The translations under genes were made by a program, and so were the position numbers. The notes beneath the pieces were generated by a model that ran no database searches, was not told the DNA's origin, and saw only the letters and a list, made by a program, of their open reading frames with translations. A stretch of 34,427 nucleotides of DNA from contig JAWXAU010000184.1 in NCBI GenBank assembly GCA_034439655.1, positions 1 to 34,427 on the forward strand, given 5' to 3'. Source of the DNA: Bacteroidota bacterium (GTDB lineage Bacteria > Bacteroidota > Bacteroidia > UKL13-3). Every line of letters begins with the position of its first letter. Position 1 is the stretch's first letter. Shown one piece after another: positions 15,912 through 31,920 of the stretch.

Positions 15912-16997
15912 CTATATCTTATTCCTAATCCAATTTTTCAACCACATGCCTGGCGAACTTTGTGGTATAAAATAGTTAACCAAATGCTGAGGTACAGTAT
16001 TATATATTTTTTTTTCTGAGGAGTTCACCAAGTTGAGACCCGAACCTTCAATTCTATTGATATAATTGAGCTCTGGCGGTTTCAAATCTAAAGCATATCG
16101 ACTTTCTACAGTAGAGATATTTTGAGAAGTAAGCACTTTTTCGGTGATAATATGTTCTGATTTTTTTTGTCCATATATATCAAAACTAATATTGTCGATG
16201 GGAATATGTTCCATATAACTATCATATATCGCGTCACTTTCTGCAAACGATTTAAATCGTGCATGCCCCTCAAAACCTACCCATAAATTTGATTGAAACT
16301 GATTGCTATTTTTGCTATGGTGCCCGCCTGCTATTCCTGTATTAGTAGAAAAAGAAGCTCTCGGATAAACCATATATTTATTTTCTTCCACCATCCATGC
16401 ACAGAGCCATTTTTTCCATGAACTCTCGGGCCAATTTGCAATTTTTTCGGGCAAGGCCAAAGTATATAAATATTCATCACTTTTATTTTCAATCCAAATT
16501 AAAAATTCTTTTGCGGCCCAAGGGAATAAGACAAAACCTGACGAAGATGGGTACTGCATAAAATATACATCACTCCCATCAAACAAAGGCCACAAAGGCA
16601 GTTCCGTGAGTTGGTGATAAGGCTGGTGATACAAGGATATGCCACAAATATATTTGTCAGTATGATAATAGCTATATGCTTCTGTTATATATTGATGATA
16701 ATTATCTGCTATATATAAATCGTCTTCAAAGATTATACTAAGTGTATCATTATTTATTTGTGCAATCAGGTTTAATATATGTTTTTTTAATCCCAAATGG
16801 GTATCCATTTGTATCATGTTTTTAGTCCCGAAATTCCAGGCAAAATCGTTTGCAACTTTATATACTTCTGCCTGCTTGTCGGAAAAATCGATGCTTACCG
16901 TTAGAGATATAGTGCCCTGTTTGGTAGCCTTGTGCAAGGATTGTAGCATTTGGTGCAATGCCGTTGGTCGGTTATATGCAGCAACAATTATTTGCAT
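15912..16997 (-). CDS. Glycosyltransferase, GT-A fold (GT2/GT13-like)
   Basis: A 361-residue GT-A type glycosyltransferase. The N-terminus MQIIVAAYNRPTALHQML is the usual nucleotide-sugar-binding start. The acidic metal-binding motif EDD lies at 91-93 (IIFEDDLYIADNY), preceded by HLGLKKHI, which recalls GT13-like enzymes. There is no membrane helix, so it probably works on the cytoplasmic side. The last 120 residues show no known domain to me. Its start overlaps the end of the GT4 gene by 10 nt, so the two are translated as a pair and probably build the same glycan. Donor and acceptor are unknown. Confidence 0.88.
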   Translation of the reverse strand: MQIIVAAYNRPTALHQMLQSLHKATKQGTISLTVSIDFSDKQAEVYKVANDFAWNFGTKNMIQMDTHLGLKKHILNLIAQINNDTLSIIFEDDLYIADNYHQYITEAYSYYHTDKYICGISLYHQPYHQLTELPLWPLFDGSDVYFMQYPSSSGFVLFPWAAKEFLIWIENKSDEYLYTLALPEKIANWPESSWKKWLCAWMVEENKYMVYPRASFSTNTGIAGGHHSKNSNQFQSNLWVGFEGHARFKSFAESDAIYDSYMEHIPIDNISFDIYGQKKSEHIITEKVLTSQNISTVESRYALDLKPPELNYINRIEGSGLNLVNSSEKKIYNTVPQHLVNYFIPQSSPGMWLKNWIRNKI

Positions 16998-18115
16998 AGT
17001 TCCACATACAACTGTTCCAATTTTTTTGAGCAGACTATATGATTGAAGTCTTGTTTTACATGTATATAACTATTGTTGGAGAAAGTATGATAGGTTTTAT
17101 CGTCCATATTGTAAAATTTTTCTATATTTTTTTGTAAAAACAATACATCGTTTTCATCCGAGAGTAACCCTGTTTCACCATCAATCACTATGTGTGGTAT
17201 ATCGCAGTGCTTGGTAGAAATAATAGGTAAGCCATTGGCCATCGCATCTAGCAAAACCACAGGTGCACCGCCTTCGCAGTCGTGTTCAATGCTGTGCTTG
17301 CTGGGTTGTATCAATACATGGTTTTTATATAAAAGCTCAGGCAATTTGTCGAAAGCCAAATGCGGAATAAAGGTAACTTTTTCTTGTATATTATCGAACT
17401 CTACAAACTCACGACATTCATTAATAGTATGGCCATCGCCCACTAAGGTGAGGTGCATACTAGGGCAATTATCCAAGGCTGCTGCGAAAGCTACCAAAGT
17501 GTCTATATGTCCTTTTTTTTCTTTAAAGTTAGCTATCTGAATAAGATTGAGCTCGCTTACTTTTTTTTCTTTTTCTGGTATGGCTGGGGGCACATTTACA
17601 CCCAAAGGTATGATATATATCTTCTGCTCAGGGCATCCTTTTTTTATTAAGGTTTCTTTGCCGTGCGGGCCTTCACACACAAATATATCGGCTAAGTCGA
17701 ACATGTGTTTGTAGCGGATTTGCCAAATGGGTTCTACATGGGGCAGGTATTCATAATCGAACCCATAGAAAGATATAATCAGTTTTTTATTCACCTGTTT
17801 ACATACTTCTAGATACTCCCATCCCACCATCGAAAAATGTGCATGTACCAAATCGAACTGACTTGCATTCTCCAAAATCCATTTCTTTATATATTTTATA
17901 TTTTGCTTGTGTTTGATATTGCCCAGCAAACCTGTAGGTACATGCCCTAGATTATTCCGCATCGGTATTTTATCTCCTTGCAAATCGAATTGTGGGTTCA
18001 AATAAACTGGGGCTGCCAGTTTTAGAGTTACACCCCTCATGGGTTCAAGAAGATGATATAACCAATTGGAGCTATTGTCGAGGTAGTGGTGGAATAATTC
18101 AAGTACGGTAGGCAC
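16988..18115 (-). CDS. Glycosyltransferase family 4
   Basis: A 375-residue GT-B glycosyltransferase. The C-terminal donor domain shows LIQIANFKEKKGHIDTLVAF (about 191-210), LTLVGDG (222-228) and the acidic E-x8-D block EGGAPVVLLDAM (Glu281, Asp290), in place of the more common E-x7-E. The N-terminal half has LVHAHFSMVGWEYL, the usual acceptor-side signature. The start is GTG at 18113-18115, and an exact TATATTTG box ends 4 nt upstream of it. It overlaps the following GT gene by 10 nt. The pair probably adds sugars to a surface polysaccharide or lipid. No transporter or polymerase is adjacent. Confidence 0.92.
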   Translation of the reverse strand: MPTVLELFHHYLDNSSNWLYHLLEPMRGVTLKLAAPVYLNPQFDLQGDKIPMRNNLGHVPTGLLGNIKHKQNIKYIKKWILENASQFDLVHAHFSMVGWEYLEVCKQVNKKLIISFYGFDYEYLPHVEPIWQIRYKHMFDLADIFVCEGPHGKETLIKKGCPEQKIYIIPLGVNVPPAIPEKEKKVSELNLIQIANFKEKKGHIDTLVAFAAALDNCPSMHLTLVGDGHTINECREFVEFDNIQEKVTFIPHLAFDKLPELLYKNHVLIQPSKHSIEHDCEGGAPVVLLDAMANGLPIISTKHCDIPHIVIDGETGLLSDENDVLFLQKNIEKFYNMDDKTYHTFSNNSYIHVKQDFNHIVCSKKLEQLYVELCK

Positions 18116-18476: not shown

Positions 18477-19307
18477 ATGAACCAACCCTACTTAGAGTTT
18501 CGTATTCCTGCCATTGGCAACACCAAAGATATGCTTATATCTGAATTAGCTGAAGATGGATTTGAAGGGTTTGTGGAGCACGACGATGGTTTTTCGGCAT
18601 TTATACCAGAGAATATATTTCTGCGAAGACGCTTTGAGGATTTGATACATGCTTACGAAATACCTTTGAGCCGAATAATCGAAAATAAAATTGAACAACG
18701 CAACTGGAATGCGGAATGGGAAGCATCGTATGAACCTATATGCATCCATAAAGATATATATATTAGAACCCCATTTCACCCTGCAATGCCCGATTTTAAG
18801 CACCAATTGACCATTCAACCTAAAATGAGTTTTGGCACGGGCCACCACGAAACTACAAGGCTCATGTTGCAATTGATGCTAGCGGAGGACTTTAAAAATA
18901 AATATATATTTGACTATGGATGCGGCACAGGCGTATTGTCTGTGATGGCTTCTGTACTTGGTGCTACGGAAATATTTGCAGTAGATATAGACGACTGGGC
19001 TGCAGAAAATTTATATGAAAACGCCCAATTGAACGACATCAAAAATATTGTTTTTGAGCAAGGTGATATTGATAAAGCAAAAGGGAAAATTTTCAACTTG
19101 GTTTTGGCAAATATCAACAAGAATATATTAACTGCTACCATGGCCGAAATGGCTAGTACAATCGAAGTAGGTGGCCTATTGTTAATGAGCGGTTTTTATG
19201 AAAATGATGTGGACGATTTGTTGAGTGTTGCCTTGCCGTATGGCCTAACTTTGAACCAAAAAATTAACGAAAACGATTGGACAGCAATGGTACTCGTAAA
19301 AAAATAG
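18477..19307 (+). CDS. prmA: Ribosomal protein L11 methyltransferase
   Basis: A 276-residue SAM-dependent methyltransferase that modifies ribosomal protein L11. An N-terminal substrate-recognition domain (about 1-85) is followed by the PrmA signature MSFGTGHHETTRLM (117-130), SAM motif I DYGCGTGVLSVMA (146-158), acidic loop VDIDDWAAENL (169-179) and NLVLANI (207-213). The length is normal. The ATG at 18477 lies 5 nt after CAAATTTG, a near match to the -7 box. The MITE-like element copy 3 lies about 90 nt upstream. Confidence 0.95.
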   Translation: MNQPYLEFRIPAIGNTKDMLISELAEDGFEGFVEHDDGFSAFIPENIFLRRRFEDLIHAYEIPLSRIIENKIEQRNWNAEWEASYEPICIHKDIYIRTPFHPAMPDFKHQLTIQPKMSFGTGHHETTRLMLQLMLAEDFKNKYIFDYGCGTGVLSVMASVLGATEIFAVDIDDWAAENLYENAQLNDIKNIVFEQGDIDKAKGKIFNLVLANINKNILTATMAEMASTIEVGGLLLMSGFYENDVDDLLSVALPYGLTLNQKINENDWTAMVLVKK

Positions 19308-19367: not shown

Positions 19368-22300
19368 ATGAAAAAACATCTTTGGCTACTTGCCTTCATT
19401 TTATTAAGTTTTAACGCTTTTTCTCAAATCACATTTTTCAATGTAGATACCGTGAAGTTTATCAATGATTTTGAAAAATACATAGGCGAAGCTGCCAACA
19501 GCAAATTAAACGACGACGCCGCAAAGTTTATTAAAAGTTGGAACAAAAACCTAATCACCACGCCACAAAAACGCCTCTTGGTGAAAATATGTAATACCAT
19601 GATTATGTCAGGCAAAACACAGGAAGATTTCTTTTGGCCTTATATACAAATTGTTAACTATTTTTTAGTTAACCCCGCCGAAGAAACTGGACTTGATACT
19701 TGGCAAGGATATTACTTGCAAACCTTGGAAAATGATCCCGAAAAGTTGCCTAATTTCTTAAACTTTTCACTTAATTTCTTCACACGTCGCACCTTATTTG
19801 CTAACGATAGGCATGAATGGACCACCAATGCCGAAAACTATGATTTACAATTCAAGCGATATCCAATACTCAAACTCAAAAACATTGACATCACCTGCAC
19901 AGTAACCGATGCCGACACCATATTTATACGCAATACCTCTGGAACTTATTTGCCCTATAAAAATGAATGGGTAGGAAAAAAAGGTCGTATAGATTGGCGA
20001 AGGACAGGCCTTGACACTAACAAGGTTTATGTGCATTTAAATAATTACAACCTTAATACCAGTCGCTCCGATTTCAAGGCAGATTCGGTGATATATAAAA
20101 ATAGCTATTTCTTTTCGCAGGTATTGCTGGGAGGCTTCGAAGACAAAGGAAATGTAACACAAGGTGCGGGCACTTTTTTCCCAAAATTTAATTCATACGA
20201 AAAAACTTTGTTTATTAAAAATATATTTCCTGGAGTTGATTTAACTGGTGGTTTTATACACCAAGGACAAGGAATAAAGTCGAACGGAAATGATTCAGTA
20301 CGAGCCAAAATCGACATATATTATAAAAATAAATTAACTGGGCGAGCTTATGCTAAAAAAGAGTTTGTGATAAAACCAGCAGGGATTATTACAGATAACG
20401 CAATGATAAGTTTATATATGCGTGACTCAGCTACCGACAAACTAGATTCGGTATTTCACCTTTCGGCAGGGTGTAATTTTAGCGAGAAAACCCGCGAACT
20501 TTCTATTACCCGCAGCGATAAAGGCTTTGGACTTACGCCATTCAAAGATTCCTATCACCGCATGGAAATTACCTGTGATGCAATTTTTTGGACCATCGAT
20601 TTACCTTTTTATGCTTTTAGTATGATAAATCCATCAGGTACAGCTAAGTTCGAATCGGGCAATTATTTTAGGGATCAGCGTTATGATGCCATGCAAGGAA
20701 TATTGGAATATAACCCCATTGAAAGGATGCGGACTTTTGTGTTAAAAAGAAAGAAAGATGGCTATCCCACCCCTCAAATATTTACACCTGCTGAATTTGC
20801 ACAATTCTTAAATAACAAAACCGAATATGTTACTGGATTGCTTATTTTGATGAATGATAAAGGGTTTATATTGTATGATACTGAGAAAGATCTCGTAACT
20901 GTATTGCCCAAGACCTCAGAATACTTTTTGGCCCATGAAAAAATTTCCGATTTTGATGTAATTGGGATGCAATCTGTAATTTCAGCAAAGCCAAATGGTG
21001 TGATAAACTTGGTGAACAACGACTTGGTGTTGGAGGGTGTTAAAGGCTTACAATTTTCCGATTCGCAAAGTGTATATGTGGTGCCTACTTCGCAGCAATT
21101 CACGGTACGCAAAAATAGAAATATGTATTTTGGTGGCAGAATGCATGCAGGACGATTCGATTTTTACGGAAAGAACTTTTATTTCGATTATAATAATTTT
21201 CTAATTAAATTGGATAATGTTGACTCGATGCGGTTTGTATGTCCTTCGCGTGAAAATCCTGAAAAATATGTATTGGTAAAAACCGTACTACAAAATATAT
21301 ATGGTACTTTATATATAGATAAAGAAAATAACAAATCAGGATTGAAAGATTATCCGGAGTACCCCATGTTTGTGAGCGACCGCGGTGCTATGGTGTACTA
21401 TGATAAGCCCGAAATTTTTGGTGGTGTATATAATAGAGAAGAATTTTATTTTAAAACAGATCCCTTTACCATCAGGAGTTTGGACAATTTCAAATTGGAA
21501 GACATCAAACTCTCTGGCCTGTTTTCGTCGGGAGGTATTGTTCCAGATTTCAATGATACACTAACGGTACAAAAAGATTACTCATTGGGTTTTATTCGCC
21601 AAAATCCTCCTGAGGGATTTGCAATGTACGGTGGCAAAGGTAAAAACTTCGGCCAAGTATCATTAAGTAATGAGGGTTTTATAGGAACTGGTAAAATAGA
21701 ATACCTCACATCGGTAGGTTATTCAGCCAGGTATTTTATGTTTTTGGACTCAACAAATGGCATGTTCGAAGAATATAATATTGCACGTACCGCTACTGTA
21801 CCCGATGTGAAAGGCACCGATGTATATATGCATTGGAAAGCAAAAGAAGACCAAATGGATGTGAGCAATAGGGAAACACCATTGGATATATTCAAAGGCA
21901 AGGCAAATATGTTTGGTACCGTAACCTTGTCTCCAGTTTCACTAGAAGGTCGTGGGCGGTTAGAATTTGATAAAGCAGTGCTGGCATCTGAGGTGTTCGA
22001 CTTCCACCCAATAACGGTGAATGCCGCCACCTCCGACTTTAAGATAAAAGGAGACGATACAACAAGGATTGCATTTTTATCGAACAATGTAAATTCATTT
22101 GTTGATTTTGAAAAACGTTATGGCGATTTCAAATCGAACAACGAAGGTGCAAATACGTTCTTCCCCATCAATGATTACCGCACCAACCTGAACGACTTTA
22201 AATGGGAGATTGACCAGCGTAAAATTACACTTTCAAAACCTGTGGGTACTGACGATCCACACTTTGTATCTACCAAGAATGGGCAAGATTCTCTCAAGTT

Positions 22301-23759
22301 CACAGCGGGCAGAGCCAGCTTTACGATGTCGAACAATATTTTGGATATTAACGAAGTTCCTTTCATCAATGTATGTGATGGAAAAATATATCCCGACAAG
22401 CAAAATGTGGTAGTAGAATCAGAAGCATATATGCGTCCGTTGCTCAACTCAAAACTAACCTGCGACAGTGTGAGCGAATATCATAAACTATATGATTGCG
22501 AAATCCAAATTCGGGGTAAATACAAAATGGAAGGTGGTGGTTTTTATGATTATGTCGACTCGAAAGGACATAAGCAAGTTATACATTTTGAAAAAATAAC
22601 AGACAACCAACGTGGCCGTATTGTAGGTACTTGTCCTATTAATGATCGGGATAGTTTTTTGGTGGGACCTAAGTTCGGTTTCAAAGGAAATATAAATTTA
22701 CTGTCGAATGCTTTATTCCTCGAATTTGACGGATTTGTGAGGCCCATACACGAAATGTGGACACTTAAAACAGAGCCTTATCAATTCACCAAACGCATCA
22801 ACCCCGACTCCGTAATATTATCGTTCAGTCATCCAAAAAATCAATACAAAGCAGACCTATTTACTGGCCTAGCCTATAATGCTGATTCGCCCCATGTATA
22901 TGCAGGTTTTTCGTGCAGGAAAAGATATTTTGGAGATAATGAAATTTTACGTGGGCATGGCGTATTATATTATGATGAGCCCTACCAACAATTTGTTATT
23001 ACCGACTCGGCTAGGTACTTGAAAAAATCTTTGCGTGGTTCTTATATGTTATTTAAGGAAGCCACGAACGAAGTGTATGGAGAAGGCAAGTTTAATTTTA
23101 ATTTTAAAATGAGCGATATCAAAATAGAAGCTGCCGGTAATTGCAATGTGGCAATGGGAGATACCATTACGGTGAATTTTGAAACGATGCTACTCATGGA
23201 TTTTCCTTTTCCAAAATCGGCATTAAATAATATGTTCGATAATTTTGAAGCTGATAATGAAAGGGCAAAAAATGTTAGGTATAATAGTGAATTTTCAAAG
23301 AAGTGTGCAGCAGAGTTTTTAGATGATAAGACATTGGAGAAATGGTTAAAAAAATATACAGAAGACGAGAAATTTTTGGTTGCGAATGCGTTTGAAAAAG
23401 CCTTGGTTTTTGGCAATTTAAAGTTGGAATGGCATAGCAAAAGCAAACGATATATATATGATGGAGAAGCGGGGTTAACAGCTATCAATAAGAAAGCTCT
23501 CAATAAGTTTGTGAAAATAAAAATATCTATTGAAAAGAAAAAGCAGGGCGATATTATGAATATGTATCTGCTTACCAATAAAGGCACTTGGTATTACTTC
23601 TTTTTTAGTAAAGGCACTTTGGGTGGATTGAGCAGCGAAGCCAAGTTTAATGAGATTATAATAAAAGAAGGACCCAAAGTAAAAGCTCCAGATATCCGTA
23701 TCAGAGAATCTACAGAAAAACAAAAGAACAATTTCTTGAGAGATTTTCCTGGGTGGTAA
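19368..23759 (+). CDS. Very large secreted protein of unknown function (1463 aa)
   Basis: I do not recognise this protein beyond a general impression that similar large exported proteins occur in Bacteroidota. Residues 1-19 form a signal peptide (LWLLAFILLSFNAFSQ). Residues about 25-160 are helical. Residues about 165-1280 are dense in alternating beta strands, Asp/Asn turns and aromatic residues, with strands such as VSLEGRGRLEFDKAVL and INLVNNDLVLEG, which recall stacked beta folds of the OstA/LptA kind; this is only an impression. Residues about 1284-1360 are helical and charged, and a short beta region ends in RDFPGW. No sorting tail, catalytic motif or membrane helix is visible. The only near neighbour on this strand is prmA, 60 nt upstream. 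The stop TAA abuts a MITE-like element end. Confidence 0.85.
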   Translation: MKKHLWLLAFILLSFNAFSQITFFNVDTVKFINDFEKYIGEAANSKLNDDAAKFIKSWNKNLITTPQKRLLVKICNTMIMSGKTQEDFFWPYIQIVNYFLVNPAEETGLDTWQGYYLQTLENDPEKLPNFLNFSLNFFTRRTLFANDRHEWTTNAENYDLQFKRYPILKLKNIDITCTVTDADTIFIRNTSGTYLPYKNEWVGKKGRIDWRRTGLDTNKVYVHLNNYNLNTSRSDFKADSVIYKNSYFFSQVLLGGFEDKGNVTQGAGTFFPKFNSYEKTLFIKNIFPGVDLTGGFIHQGQGIKSNGNDSVRAKIDIYYKNKLTGRAYAKKEFVIKPAGIITDNAMISLYMRDSATDKLDSVFHLSAGCNFSEKTRELSITRSDKGFGLTPFKDSYHRMEITCDAIFWTIDLPFYAFSMINPSGTAKFESGNYFRDQRYDAMQGILEYNPIERMRTFVLKRKKDGYPTPQIFTPAEFAQFLNNKTEYVTGLLILMNDKGFILYDTEKDLVTVLPKTSEYFLAHEKISDFDVIGMQSVISAKPNGVINLVNNDLVLEGVKGLQFSDSQSVYVVPTSQQFTVRKNRNMYFGGRMHAGRFDFYGKNFYFDYNNFLIKLDNVDSMRFVCPSRENPEKYVLVKTVLQNIYGTLYIDKENNKSGLKDYPEYPMFVSDRGAMVYYDKPEIFGGVYNREEFYFKTDPFTIRSLDNFKLEDIKLSGLFSSGGIVPDFNDTLTVQKDYSLGFIRQNPPEGFAMYGGKGKNFGQVSLSNEGFIGTGKIEYLTSVGYSARYFMFLDSTNGMFEEYNIARTATVPDVKGTDVYMHWKAKEDQMDVSNRETPLDIFKGKANMFGTVTLSPVSLEGRGRLEFDKAVLASEVFDFHPITVNAATSDFKIKGDDTTRIAFLSNNVNSFVDFEKRYGDFKSNNEGANTFFPINDYRTNLNDFKWEIDQRKITLSKPVGTDDPHFVSTKNGQDSLKFTAGRASFTMSNNILDINEVPFINVCDGKIYPDKQNVVVESEAYMRPLLNSKLTCDSVSEYHKLYDCEIQIRGKYKMEGGGFYDYVDSKGHKQVIHFEKITDNQRGRIVGTCPINDRDSFLVGPKFGFKGNINLLSNALFLEFDGFVRPIHEMWTLKTEPYQFTKRINPDSVILSFSHPKNQYKADLFTGLAYNADSPHVYAGFSCRKRYFGDNEILRGHGVLYYDEPYQQFVITDSARYLKKSLRGSYMLFKEATNEVYGEGKFNFNFKMSDIKIEAAGNCNVAMGDTITVNFETMLLMDFPFPKSALNNMFDNFEADNERAKNVRYNSEFSKKCAAEFLDDKTLEKWLKKYTEDEKFLVANAFEKALVFGNLKLEWHSKSKRYIYDGEAGLTAINKKALNKFVKIKISIEKKKQGDIMNMYLLTNKGTWYYFFFSKGTLGGLSSEAKFNEIIIKEGPKVKAPDIRIRESTEKQKNNFLRDFPGW

Positions 23760-24529: not shown

Positions 24530-26959
24530 TTATTTTTTGGTTTTGATATGATACAATAATTCATATAGATGTGTTTTTACTCTTATTTCTTTATCTCGGG
24601 CGTTAAACATCTTAACTCTGGAATATACACTCTGCCCCGTTTTTAGGTCAATAACATTTGAAAGCAAATAGGTATAATTGTGATTTTTCAGTATTACATT
24701 TACAGCAGAATTATCGCTAGAATTAGACCCCCCTAGTAATAAAACTCCAATAGCACAAGCAAGTTCGAATTTGTCTATTTCTTCCTTTACACCTATTACA
24801 CCTAGTTTTAGAATAAATTGCGTTCCATGATTTGCTATAAAGCCATCTATTTCAGTTTTATCGACTGGTATCAATGAAAACTCTGGATCTGTTGAACTTT
24901 CGTTCAGAAAGTTATTGATTAAATACATTTCATTGAGCTTTTCAGCATCATTTTCTTTTAACGTTTTAGTATTGATATCATCAATAGGCATATCTATTTT
25001 TTTCGCCACATAGTTCATGTCTTCGCTCAATTTTATCACTTTGTTTTCAGAGCTCTCGAACCGGAAATCATCCTTTTTGTTGTGATTGAGTTTTATATAA
25101 AAAGGTGCTACCATTACCATTTTATCTATGGCAACACTTTCATCGAGTTCATACGTGTCAAAGGCTTTATATTCTATATCCATGTACTCTTCTTTCTTGA
25201 TGGTAGACTCTTCTTCATCTTCATTGGCTTTTTTCTTCTGTATATTTTTCTTTTCTTTATATAGTTTTTTATATAGTTTAGCATACTCCTCATCTGCCGC
25301 CAATGCCTTTAGAATACTATAGAAAACAGGTCTTGATTCTGTCCTGATTTCTTCTTCGTTAAATTCCTCACGAAGATTTTTCTTTGACTTTTTCTTCTTT
25401 TTTATTTTTTTCTCCTTGGTTGTTCCCTTCTGGTTTTTATCTTTTGTAGCGTTTATATCTTCATCCGAATCATCTTGTTCAACTTCCACTTTTTTTTCCT
25501 TTTTCTGTTTCTTTTCAGATTTGGTTATTTTTGATTTCTTCCCTTTACTGCCTATAGGTTTGGCTGGGTCAATGTTTTTAAGAGCATCAAAATCTAAATT
25601 GTATTTGGCAACAAAAGTTTTGGTTAAGTCCTCTATCAAGTTGGTAGCATTTTTATCATTGGGATTTACTTTATGGTATTCCCACATTCTTTCCAATGCT
25701 GTTGAAACAAGACCAACATCCGATTTTATTAGACGGCCCAAAAAATAATATGATCCACCGCCACTTCCCTCTATAGTTTTATAACTGGTATGCACCATAC
25801 TATAATAGTTAGTTGCTCCATAATGTACCTGTAGTTTTGACATGGCATACAAACAATGATTCAAGCACTTTTGCAAATAATGGCTATTGGGGTTTTCAGC
25901 CATAAGCAAATATAAACTTACAAAGGCCTCTTCGTATTTCTGCTGCACCAAACAAACGTGTATGTATTCATAACGTGCCACTTTCCTCATATCGAAAAAT
26001 TCTTTCTCGCCGTTCAAAAAAAGTGAGTTACCTGCTGGTTTCATTTTAGCAGCCAAGGCCAATAGCCGTTCTCTGCGTTTCTTAATATTAGGATGCGTGG
26101 ACAGTTCATCATCATACGCATCGGAATTTATATCAAGTGGTGTTAAAACAGAATCTGATGGGATATAGGAATTTGGGAATTTGAGATTCTTGGTTTCTAA
26201 AAAACTGGCACTAAACCGTTTTTCATCAAAAGGTAAATTTGCAAATTGTAATACATCGAACATGCTTTCAATAGCATCGAAACTATAACCGCTTTCTTTA
26301 TATAATTCTAAACCTTCTTCGTCGGCTTCGGTTTCCAGATCGCGACTATATGCTGTTTTCTTAATAAACTTGTCAAAATCTTGACCACTGCTCTTTTTAT
26401 TTAAATCCTTTTCGAGTTGTACTTGATGCTTGAATCCTTTATAAGAATGTTCCTTCGCATAATGTTGAATTTCATGACATAGTATTAAAGCTAACTGTGC
26501 CTCATTTTCAATATGCGATAATAGTCCAATGGTGACGAATACAATTCCTGAATTGGTAGTAAATGCATTTACATAGGGAAACCTGACCACATAAAATCTC
26601 ATTTCATTACTCAAATTCCCTTGCTCTTTGAGCACGGTTTGGGCTACTTTATTTACATAATCACCAAGTGGATCATTATATAGTACCAATCCACTGAGGA
26701 GTATTTCATCAACACTAAAATTAACATACATTTGAAATTCTCTTTGTGTTTTTTTCTCCTTATGAGAAATTTTTTTCTTAGAGATTTTTTCAAGAGATTT
26801 TTTGTATTTCTCCGTACTAGTAGTTGTAACGTCCTTTGGCAAATTACCAGAAGATTTAATCAGTTCATAATGGTCGAAGTCAATAGATGACTGACCCAAA
26901 ACTGTCCTTACCGTAAAAATCAAAATTAAAAATGGCAATTCTCGTTTAAATTTACACAT
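24530..26959 (-). CDS. Secreted M48-type metallopeptidase with Lys-rich insert
   Basis: An 809-residue protein. The ATG at 26959 is preferred because it puts the signal peptide (LPFLILIFTVRTVLGQ) at the N-terminus. The M48 zinc motif HEIQH lies at 162-166, with the third ligand in DLETEAD (207-213), so the peptidase core (about 75-230) looks active. A helical, TPR-like region follows (about 330-465). Residues about 470-555 are a low-complexity stretch rich in Lys, Glu and Asp, unusual for an exported protein. The last 250 residues have no family I can name. The gene is followed by a small beta-barrel after 4 nt, which suggests an envelope quality-control role (inference). An AAT repeat lies about 40 nt upstream. 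Confidence 0.85.
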   Translation of the reverse strand: MCKFKRELPFLILIFTVRTVLGQSSIDFDHYELIKSSGNLPKDVTTTSTEKYKKSLEKISKKKISHKEKKTQREFQMYVNFSVDEILLSGLVLYNDPLGDYVNKVAQTVLKEQGNLSNEMRFYVVRFPYVNAFTTNSGIVFVTIGLLSHIENEAQLALILCHEIQHYAKEHSYKGFKHQVQLEKDLNKKSSGQDFDKFIKKTAYSRDLETEADEEGLELYKESGYSFDAIESMFDVLQFANLPFDEKRFSASFLETKNLKFPNSYIPSDSVLTPLDINSDAYDDELSTHPNIKKRRERLLALAAKMKPAGNSLFLNGEKEFFDMRKVARYEYIHVCLVQQKYEEAFVSLYLLMAENPNSHYLQKCLNHCLYAMSKLQVHYGATNYYSMVHTSYKTIEGSGGGSYYFLGRLIKSDVGLVSTALERMWEYHKVNPNDKNATNLIEDLTKTFVAKYNLDFDALKNIDPAKPIGSKGKKSKITKSEKKQKKEKKVEVEQDDSDEDINATKDKNQKGTTKEKKIKKKKKSKKNLREEFNEEEIRTESRPVFYSILKALAADEEYAKLYKKLYKEKKNIQKKKANEDEEESTIKKEEYMDIEYKAFDTYELDESVAIDKMVMVAPFYIKLNHNKKDDFRFESSENKVIKLSEDMNYVAKKIDMPIDDINTKTLKENDAEKLNEMYLINNFLNESSTDPEFSLIPVDKTEIDGFIANHGTQFILKLGVIGVKEEIDKFELACAIGVLLLGGSNSSDNSAVNVILKNHNYTYLLSNVIDLKTGQSVYSRVKMFNARDKEIRVKTHLYELLYHIKTKK

Positions 26960-27000
26960 AACTTTATTATTTGGCCACAATAATAACAAAGAAATTATAA

Positions 27001-30153: not shown

Positions 30154-31920
30154 ATGCTGAAAATAAAAATCATATTATGGAGCATTTGTTTAGTTGCCTT
30201 AAGCCATACTGCAATAGCCCAAGGCGATATGGACGATGCTTTTTTCGATAAGCATAAATCTAATGTAAAAGCTGGGGCTGACCTTCTGAAAAAACTTAAG
30301 AAAAGTAAAAATCTTCAAATCTCAGATCCCAAGCAAGCTATGGATTTGGCTACTGAGGCAACGGAGAAAGCTAAAAAAATGAAACTGAAAAAAATTGAAA
30401 TGATAGGACATTTGCAGCTCTCAAATTTATATAATAAAGAAAAAAATTACACAAAAGCCCATGCACAATGCAGCGATGCAGAAGCACTGGGACATAGCAG
30501 CAATGACAATGAACTCTTGGCCATTATCTATTATCAGAATGCAGCCATATTTAATAACCAAGCCAATATCGATGAAGCATATAATTATTATAGTTACGCA
30601 TTGGGATATTATCAGAGCCAAAGAAACACTAAAGGCATGATGCATTGTAATATTGAAATGGGAAGTATCTCTATAGCAAGAAATAAACTTGAAGATGCCA
30701 AAGTACAATTGGCAGAAGCGAAGAAACTGGCTACTACCCTAGCAGATGGGGCATCATTGAATAAGATAAACGAGAAGCTAAATTTCTGCCAAATCACGCT
30801 CGACAATCAAAAGAAATCAAATGAAATGCAGGGTAAGGTTTCTCAAATGCAGGACGAAGTTGGATTGATGAACTCAACGTTGAACCTGATGAAGGATTCC
30901 ATGCAAATGACTGAACGCGAAAAGAAAATGTTGCATCAGCAAATGGATATGGAACGTAATAACCAACAGCAGAAACTCGACCTAGGGCAGAAACAACGTG
31001 AAATACAAGAACTTCAGTTACAAGAAAAAGAATCCGATAAAAATGTACTTATTATTATATTGACCATGTTGGGTATTGTTGGAATTTTAATGTCAGTGCA
31101 GCTACGTGCACTCACCAAAGCCCGGAATAATTTGCAAATAGCACTTACCGAATTAAAAGAAACGCAAAGCCAATTGGTGATGTCGGAAAAGCTGGCATCG
31201 CTAGGCAAAGTAACCGCTGGCATCGCTCATGAATTGAAAAATCCACTCAATTTTATTAATAATTTTGCTAAACTCAATTACGATTTGCTCCACGAACTGC
31301 ACGACCCCATCAACGATGAGGAAAGAAAAGCTGTTATACAATTATTGCAAGAAAATACCAGTAAAATATCAGAACACGGTAAACGTTCAGATGGAATTAT
31401 TACCAATATGTTACGCCATTTAGACAATGTGAAAAGTAAACCCGCAGATTTTGATTTTGGTAAAATGGTAGAGGAAACATTATATTATAGTATGGAGCAA
31501 AACAACAAGCGATTTCCATCACTTTTGGTAGTACCACAAGTGGAACTATTATATAATGAGATTGTTCATAAACCCAAAAAAGATTTGGCCCGTGCTGTTA
31601 CCAATATAGTTGATAATGCTTTGTATGCACTTAATGAAAAACTAAAAACCAATCCTGATTTTATACCAGAACTTATCATAAAAACTTATGATAAAAACAA
31701 CCAGATATATATTAGTATTGCCGACAATGGCGACGGCATAAAACTATCCGAATTACAAGAGATATTCGAACCATTTTACACCACCAAACCTCCTAACGAA
31801 GGCACAGGGCTTGGACTTTCACTAGCTTTTGATCTGGTGAGAGCGAATGGTGGGAATATTATAGTAGAAAGTGAAGTTGGCAAAGGTTGCAGTTTTATTT
31901 TGGAACTACCGAAAAGTTAA
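30154..31920 (+). CDS. Sensor histidine kinase with secreted TPR domain
   Basis: A 588-residue kinase. A signal peptide (1-22) is followed by TPR-like helices (about 35-215), a coiled coil (about 222-293) and one membrane helix (297-315). A cytoplasmic linker leads to the HisKA-type H-box, with His359 in GIAHELKNPLNFINN, and to an ATPase domain with N-box NIVDNALYAL, G1 ADNGDGI, F-box FEPFYTTKP and G2 GTGLGLSLA. The kinase core looks complete. There is no receiver domain and no response regulator within view, so its partner is encoded elsewhere. Signal-peptide TPR sensor kinases of this plan are common in Bacteroidota. The stimulus is unknown. Confidence 0.93.
   Translation: MLKIKIILWSICLVALSHTAIAQGDMDDAFFDKHKSNVKAGADLLKKLKKSKNLQISDPKQAMDLATEATEKAKKMKLKKIEMIGHLQLSNLYNKEKNYTKAHAQCSDAEALGHSSNDNELLAIIYYQNAAIFNNQANIDEAYNYYSYALGYYQSQRNTKGMMHCNIEMGSISIARNKLEDAKVQLAEAKKLATTLADGASLNKINEKLNFCQITLDNQKKSNEMQGKVSQMQDEVGLMNSTLNLMKDSMQMTEREKKMLHQQMDMERNNQQQKLDLGQKQREIQELQLQEKESDKNVLIIILTMLGIVGILMSVQLRALTKARNNLQIALTELKETQSQLVMSEKLASLGKVTAGIAHELKNPLNFINNFAKLNYDLLHELHDPINDEERKAVIQLLQENTSKISEHGKRSDGIITNMLRHLDNVKSKPADFDFGKMVEETLYYSMEQNNKRFPSLLVVPQVELLYNEIVHKPKKDLARAVTNIVDNALYALNEKLKTNPDFIPELIIKTYDKNNQIYISIADNGDGIKLSELQEIFEPFYTTKPPNEGTGLGLSLAFDLVRANGGNIIVESEVGKGCSFILELPKS

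Follow-up and report, generated by a model that had tools for sequence, protein, structure and literature searches.

A conserved 1463-residue protein of Bacteroidota with an apparent export signal and a partly LptA/LptC-like predicted fold

The delivery of non-LPS lipids to the outer membrane is still under investigation, even in E. coli. The closest described systems are LptA and LptC, which have the OstA fold and range from ~180 (E. coli LptA, a soluble protein with 16 strands in the monomer) to 560 residues, and the AsmA-like proteins TamB, YhdP and YdbH, which are putative lipid bridges of extended beta architecture that retain an inner-membrane helix. We describe here a 1463-residue protein encoded in a 34,427-nucleotide stretch of DNA from a member of the Bacteroidota (the window). 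It appears to share export and beta-jellyroll strands with LptA and LptC, and like LptA it is apparently soluble, but it is far longer as a single chain, has additional helical, winged-helix and C-terminal domains, and has no profile similarity to them. Its extended beta architecture, putative bridging role and size are in common with the AsmA-like proteins (the main TamB open frames are mostly 1460–1790 residues in the genomes searched), although it has an apparently cleavable signal peptide where those have a retained helix, and no TamB or AsmA Pfam match. The long lipid-carrying beta sheets of VPS13/chorein proteins and ApoB100 are weak fold matches, but with low probability, no sequence similarity and different cellular compartments. 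Literature searches gave no description of the protein, and the papers found cover the Lpt bridge, AsmA-like proteins and TamL/TamB of F. johnsoniae.

The gene product and family searches

The open reading frame at 19368–23759 (forward strand) has an ATG start, 1463 codons and no internal stops, and is the largest in the window, in agreement with an earlier note that described the gene as apparently intact and the largest there. The N-terminus (MKKHLWLLAFILLSFNAFSQ) resembles a cleavable Sec signal by inspection, and in the orthologues the signal segment also terminates in A-Q or S-Q. We read the hydrophobic N-terminus and the conserved site as a cleaved signal, so judged by eye the signal peptide reported earlier holds up, and the protein is apparently exported.

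Neither Pfam nor NCBIfam gave a match at E 0.1, and scanning 24 orthologues against both at E 1 gave scattered matches only, each in one member. At the sequence level, neither the protein alone nor a profile drew a significant match from the PDB. The TamB and AsmA profiles are unmatched by the protein or the 24 orthologues at E 1, as is the NCBIfam T9SS C-terminal sorting domain (E 0.1 for the protein, E 1 for the orthologues), and no adhesin, S-layer or repeat family was matched in the Pfam and NCBIfam scans of the same set. There is likewise no Pfam match to OstA_2/LptA (PF13100, PF03968) in the protein or its 24 orthologues, and in hhalign comparison with 19 Bacteroidia OstA_2 proteins no whole slice reached a probability of 1% and no piece exceeded 5%; profile comparison does not place the protein in the OstA_2/LptA family. 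By these searches it falls in no catalogued protein family, as first suggested from the letters of the sequence, and the enzyme or adhesin family match that would have spoken against that view did not emerge from the profile searches.

Predicted architecture and fold

Two overlapping AlphaFold2 models (residues 20–1040 and 470–1463) have mean pLDDT values of 90.8 and 90.0 and assign the same secondary structure to 97% of the residues that they share, with pTM values (0.66 and 0.53 respectively) that leave the placement of the domains uncertain. Combined, they contain 18 helices and 96 strands, many of the strands just 3–6 residues long (Table 1). A helical N-terminal region, more than 1000 strand-rich residues and a helical, charged C-terminal part had been proposed earlier, and the models have each of these, with helices at residues 28–140, beta structure from 142 to 1280 broken by a winged helix (~436–523), and helices at 1283–1333 followed by long strands at 1346–1422. 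Hydrophobicity alternates along the strands with a value of 2.00, compared with 1.30 ± 0.13 for shuffled sequence; such two-faced strands would fit a groove, and equally any beta sandwich.

Table 1. Features of the 1463-residue protein gene and its upstream neighbour, in window coordinates
Feature	Position	Strand	Basis
prmA (ribosomal protein L11 methyltransferase), upstream neighbour	18477..19307	+	NCBIfam equivalog NF001785; upstream in many relatives too
Apparent signal peptide region, residues 1–20 (..NAFS|Q), without lipobox cysteine	19368..19427	+	Sequence by inspection; A-Q/S-Q position kept in orthologues
N-terminal six-helix bundle, residues 28–140	19449..19787	+	AlphaFold2 model 20–1040, pLDDT 85–92 over most
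First beta region, residues 142–432	19791..20663	+	AlphaFold2; containing model matches LptC 6mit_C, TM 0.56
Duplication copy 1, ~residues 272–432 and 530–587, interrupted by winged helix	20181..21128	+	hhalign self-comparison
Inserted winged-helix domain, ~residues 436–523	20673..20936	+	AlphaFold2 secondary structure; MarR-type Foldseek matches
Main beta region, residues 533–1280	20964..23207	+	AlphaFold2, pLDDT mostly 85–95; Foldseek LptD top, also LptC/LptA/ApoB100
Duplication copy 2, ~residues 821–1023, without winged helix	21828..22436	+	hhalign self-comparison
Charged helices, residues 1283–1333	23214..23366	+	AlphaFold2
C-terminal domain: six strands (1346–1422) and terminal helical tail	23403..23756	+	AlphaFold2

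The two duplication copies align in order with a probability of 95% (E 5e-8, 200 columns; hhalign), and by this comparison the winged helix is an insertion within the first copy. Profile self-comparison gave no significant internal repeat beyond this single duplication; the matches B7/B8, B4/B5, B3/B4 and B6/B7 were set aside because the overlapping slices share sequence. In Foldseek searches with the two models the winged helix drew many MarR-type matches (probability 0.9–1.0).

The best PDB match for both models in Foldseek is LptD (E 6e-7 and 1e-6), with alignments of ~1000 columns, which would be the expectation for an LptD-like translocon made up of an outer-membrane beta barrel and a jellyroll plug. 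However, a shared 26-strand barrel should superpose, and the superposition is poor for both models (TM ≤0.18, rmsd ≥40 Å), so the E-values reflect a local strand pattern and not shape. The many short strands also argue against a barrel, as does a helical C-terminus without the conserved barrel-ending aromatic residue, and we regard this reading as highly improbable. In the absence of a global superposition on LptD, the fold assignment rests mainly on LptC (6mit_C), which matches the N-terminal model with probability 1.00, TM 0.56 and rmsd 3.9 Å over 160 columns and is the only Lpt match with TM above 0.5, and on LptA (2r1a_E; TM 0.49, probability 0.89). LptH is also among the PDB matches, and the 50 top-ranking ones listed include no TamB structure. 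ApoB100 is within the first 12 PDB matches of the C-terminal model, weakly and at a probability of ~0.5 or less, and the best match in a viral library is a chorein-domain (VPS13-type) protein, also weak (probability 0.51).

Part of the chain is thus predicted to adopt an LptA/LptC-type beta-jellyroll fold. The OstA/LptA likeness put forward in the earlier note stands as regards fold, through the LptD, LptC, LptA/LptH, ApoB100 and chorein matches, and falls as regards OstA_2/LptA profile membership; the structure prediction that it called for gave a beta-rich protein with an LptC-like part, rather than one lacking an extended beta fold.

Distribution, constraint and gene neighbourhood

Orthologues are present in 55 of 58 relatives, nearly all full length and with 27–90% identity, and in all 46 genomes of the order. 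In a larger draw of relatives 215 of 245 genomes have a match, and ~57 family labels have at least one genome with the gene (~59 families in total when f18 and f31 are added, counted from the tables). The gene is nearly always single copy, and second matches in a few genomes look like contig-end fragments or split matches. When genomes were drawn evenly across the phylum, a sample dominated by a few large families, 11 of 296 had the gene. The listed genomes of families f21, f25, f26, f27, f32, f72 and f97 gave no match, and family f14 is mixed (present in G047, G200 and G240, absent from G130 and G165). A divergent homologue in f25–f27 was considered and rejected, since a diverse C-terminal profile gave no match there; the profile is unmatched in 17 genomes without the gene, and does match in other genomes. 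We note that matches in f3 and f5 (e.g. G036, G390, G392) are interrupted by one in-frame stop although their open frames run to ~1480–1546 residues, and the alignment possibly runs beyond the true C-terminal stop.

Comparison of the window with two genomes of the same genus gives dN ~0.06 and dS 1.8–2.0 (near saturation), and dN/dS is ~0.03 overall and low in each domain where it could be computed. The gene is under strong purifying selection, and on these comparisons its conservation is far beyond chance.

The gene order tpiA-prmA-gene-plsY-clpS is found, whole or in part, in many relatives. Although prmA is a conserved neighbour, we do not propose that it shares a function with the gene. 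The product of plsY is an inner-membrane acyltransferase of phospholipid synthesis. It is encoded directly downstream in 44 of ~80 named loci, with a spacing of -20 to +11 bp in 34 of them (counted from a table in which gene starts were assigned mechanically), and it adjoins the gene in distant families too (G038, G049, G053, G126). In the genome of the window plsY is on a different contig, not next to the gene, and three genomes with the gene (G037, G047, G200) have no plsY match. The neighbour check suggested earlier therefore gives tpiA-prmA upstream, and plsY downstream in many relatives though not in the window. In seven of nine gene-lacking genomes examined prmA still adjoins tpiA, clpS or both, which would fit a loss of the gene from a locus that was ancestrally complete.

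Several other genes in these regions are worth recording. An 819-residue M48 metallopeptidase with a lysine/glutamate-rich stretch and weak similarity to BepA, which in E. coli acts in LptD assembly, is encoded at 24530–26989 (reverse strand); it seems to be no conserved neighbour, and the close relative L053 has a 697-residue gene in its place. At 15912–18115 (reverse strand), upstream of a 94-residue ORF, there is an adjacent pair of glycosyltransferases (one GT4-type, one weakly GT2/GNT-I-like), and at 30154–31920 (forward strand) a histidine kinase with an apparent signal sequence and an N-terminal helical region that is TPR-like by eye. In two genomes without the gene (L168, 5977–7528; L169, 5959–7489) plsY is followed by a similar 266-residue lipoprotein-like gene, M48-like by eye, and in L089, L114, L122, L125 and L130 there are ORFs of ~1000–2300 residues just downstream of the gene or plsY.

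A large, beta-rich, exported protein might also be a structural component of the surface or cell wall built of beta domains, such as an S-layer-like, adhesin or matrix protein, and low-probability Foldseek matches to teneurin and phage tail fibres are in keeping with this. However, the single copy, low dN/dS and recurrent synteny run contrary to what is seen in fast-evolving surface proteins, adhesin, S-layer and repeat families are unmatched, and there is neither a T9SS sorting-domain match nor a lipobox; such a role is improbable.

The gene does not appear to fill a vacancy in lipid transport. All 30 genomes tested have a canonical OstA_2 protein, so the 1463-residue protein is not needed as a substitute for the LPS bridge and we rejected it as a canonical LptA substitute, although it may play an additional part there. 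TamB and MCE proteins occur in all sampled genomes, with or without the gene, and replacement of either was rejected. AsmA matches are found in 18 of 22 genomes (12 of 12 with the gene, 6 of 10 without), and as this pattern is not complementary replacement of AsmA was rejected too. With LptA, TamB and MCE present regardless of the gene, no lipid-transport gap demands it.

A possible role in lipid handling

Our preferred, though tentative, reading is that the protein is an extended, LptA-like component of the periplasm with a part in handling or bridging lipids. It would be exported as a soluble periplasmic protein taking part in outer-membrane biogenesis, with its ~96 strands forming an extended LptA/LptC-like beta jellyroll in a single chain. 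A hydrophobic groove in the beta region would let lipid cross the periplasm or be handed on, the helical N-terminus, winged helix and C-terminal domain would serve as docking sites for partners at the two membranes, and the protein would work in parallel with the LptA, TamB, AsmA and MCE systems of the same genome. Stacking of all the strands in the manner of LptA would give the equivalent of about six E. coli LptA monomers, an upper bound on length at which a span across the periplasm would be possible. Periplasmic location, groove, lipid cargo, docking of partners and spanning are inferences here, and neither a membrane anchor nor a partner was identified. The predicted Lpt-type fold, the signal without a lipobox or T9SS match, the single copy, the constraint and the plsY adjacency in relatives favour lipid handling, and we count against it the poor LptD superposition, the weakness of the ApoB100 and chorein matches, the lack of OstA_2 profile similarity and the non-adjacency of plsY in the window.

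The same fold and distribution would be expected of a periplasmic assembly factor or scaffold whose jellyroll binds proteins, aiding for example outer-membrane protein or Lpt/BAM assembly, and carries no lipid. The additional helical, winged-helix and C-terminal domains resemble docking surfaces, and there is a precedent in the beta-taco tube of TamB, which has been proposed as a chaperone of outer-membrane proteins (PMC12045153). However, the neighbours that recur in the clusters counted are housekeeping genes and the lipid-synthesis gene plsY, with no assembly-type gene among them, and we consider a scaffold rather unlikely.

Taken furthest, lipid handling would make the protein a trans-envelope lipid bridge of a kind not described before: a giant LptA-like chain, present in the ancestor of the class and since lost from several large families, that works beside Lpt and TAM and brings to the outer membrane a lipid perhaps obtained near PlsY. 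This fuller picture is doubtful. The earlier guess at the fold was a good one, and a lipid-bridge function is plausible.

Bacteroidota outer membranes hold unusual lipids, among which sulfonolipids and ornithine lipids are major constituents in F. johnsoniae (PMC12045153). A single-copy, constrained giant with a predicted LPS-bridge fold would be a good candidate for a component of envelope construction that has gone unrecognised, and its presence in most sampled families of the class and absence from several large ones offers a natural comparison.
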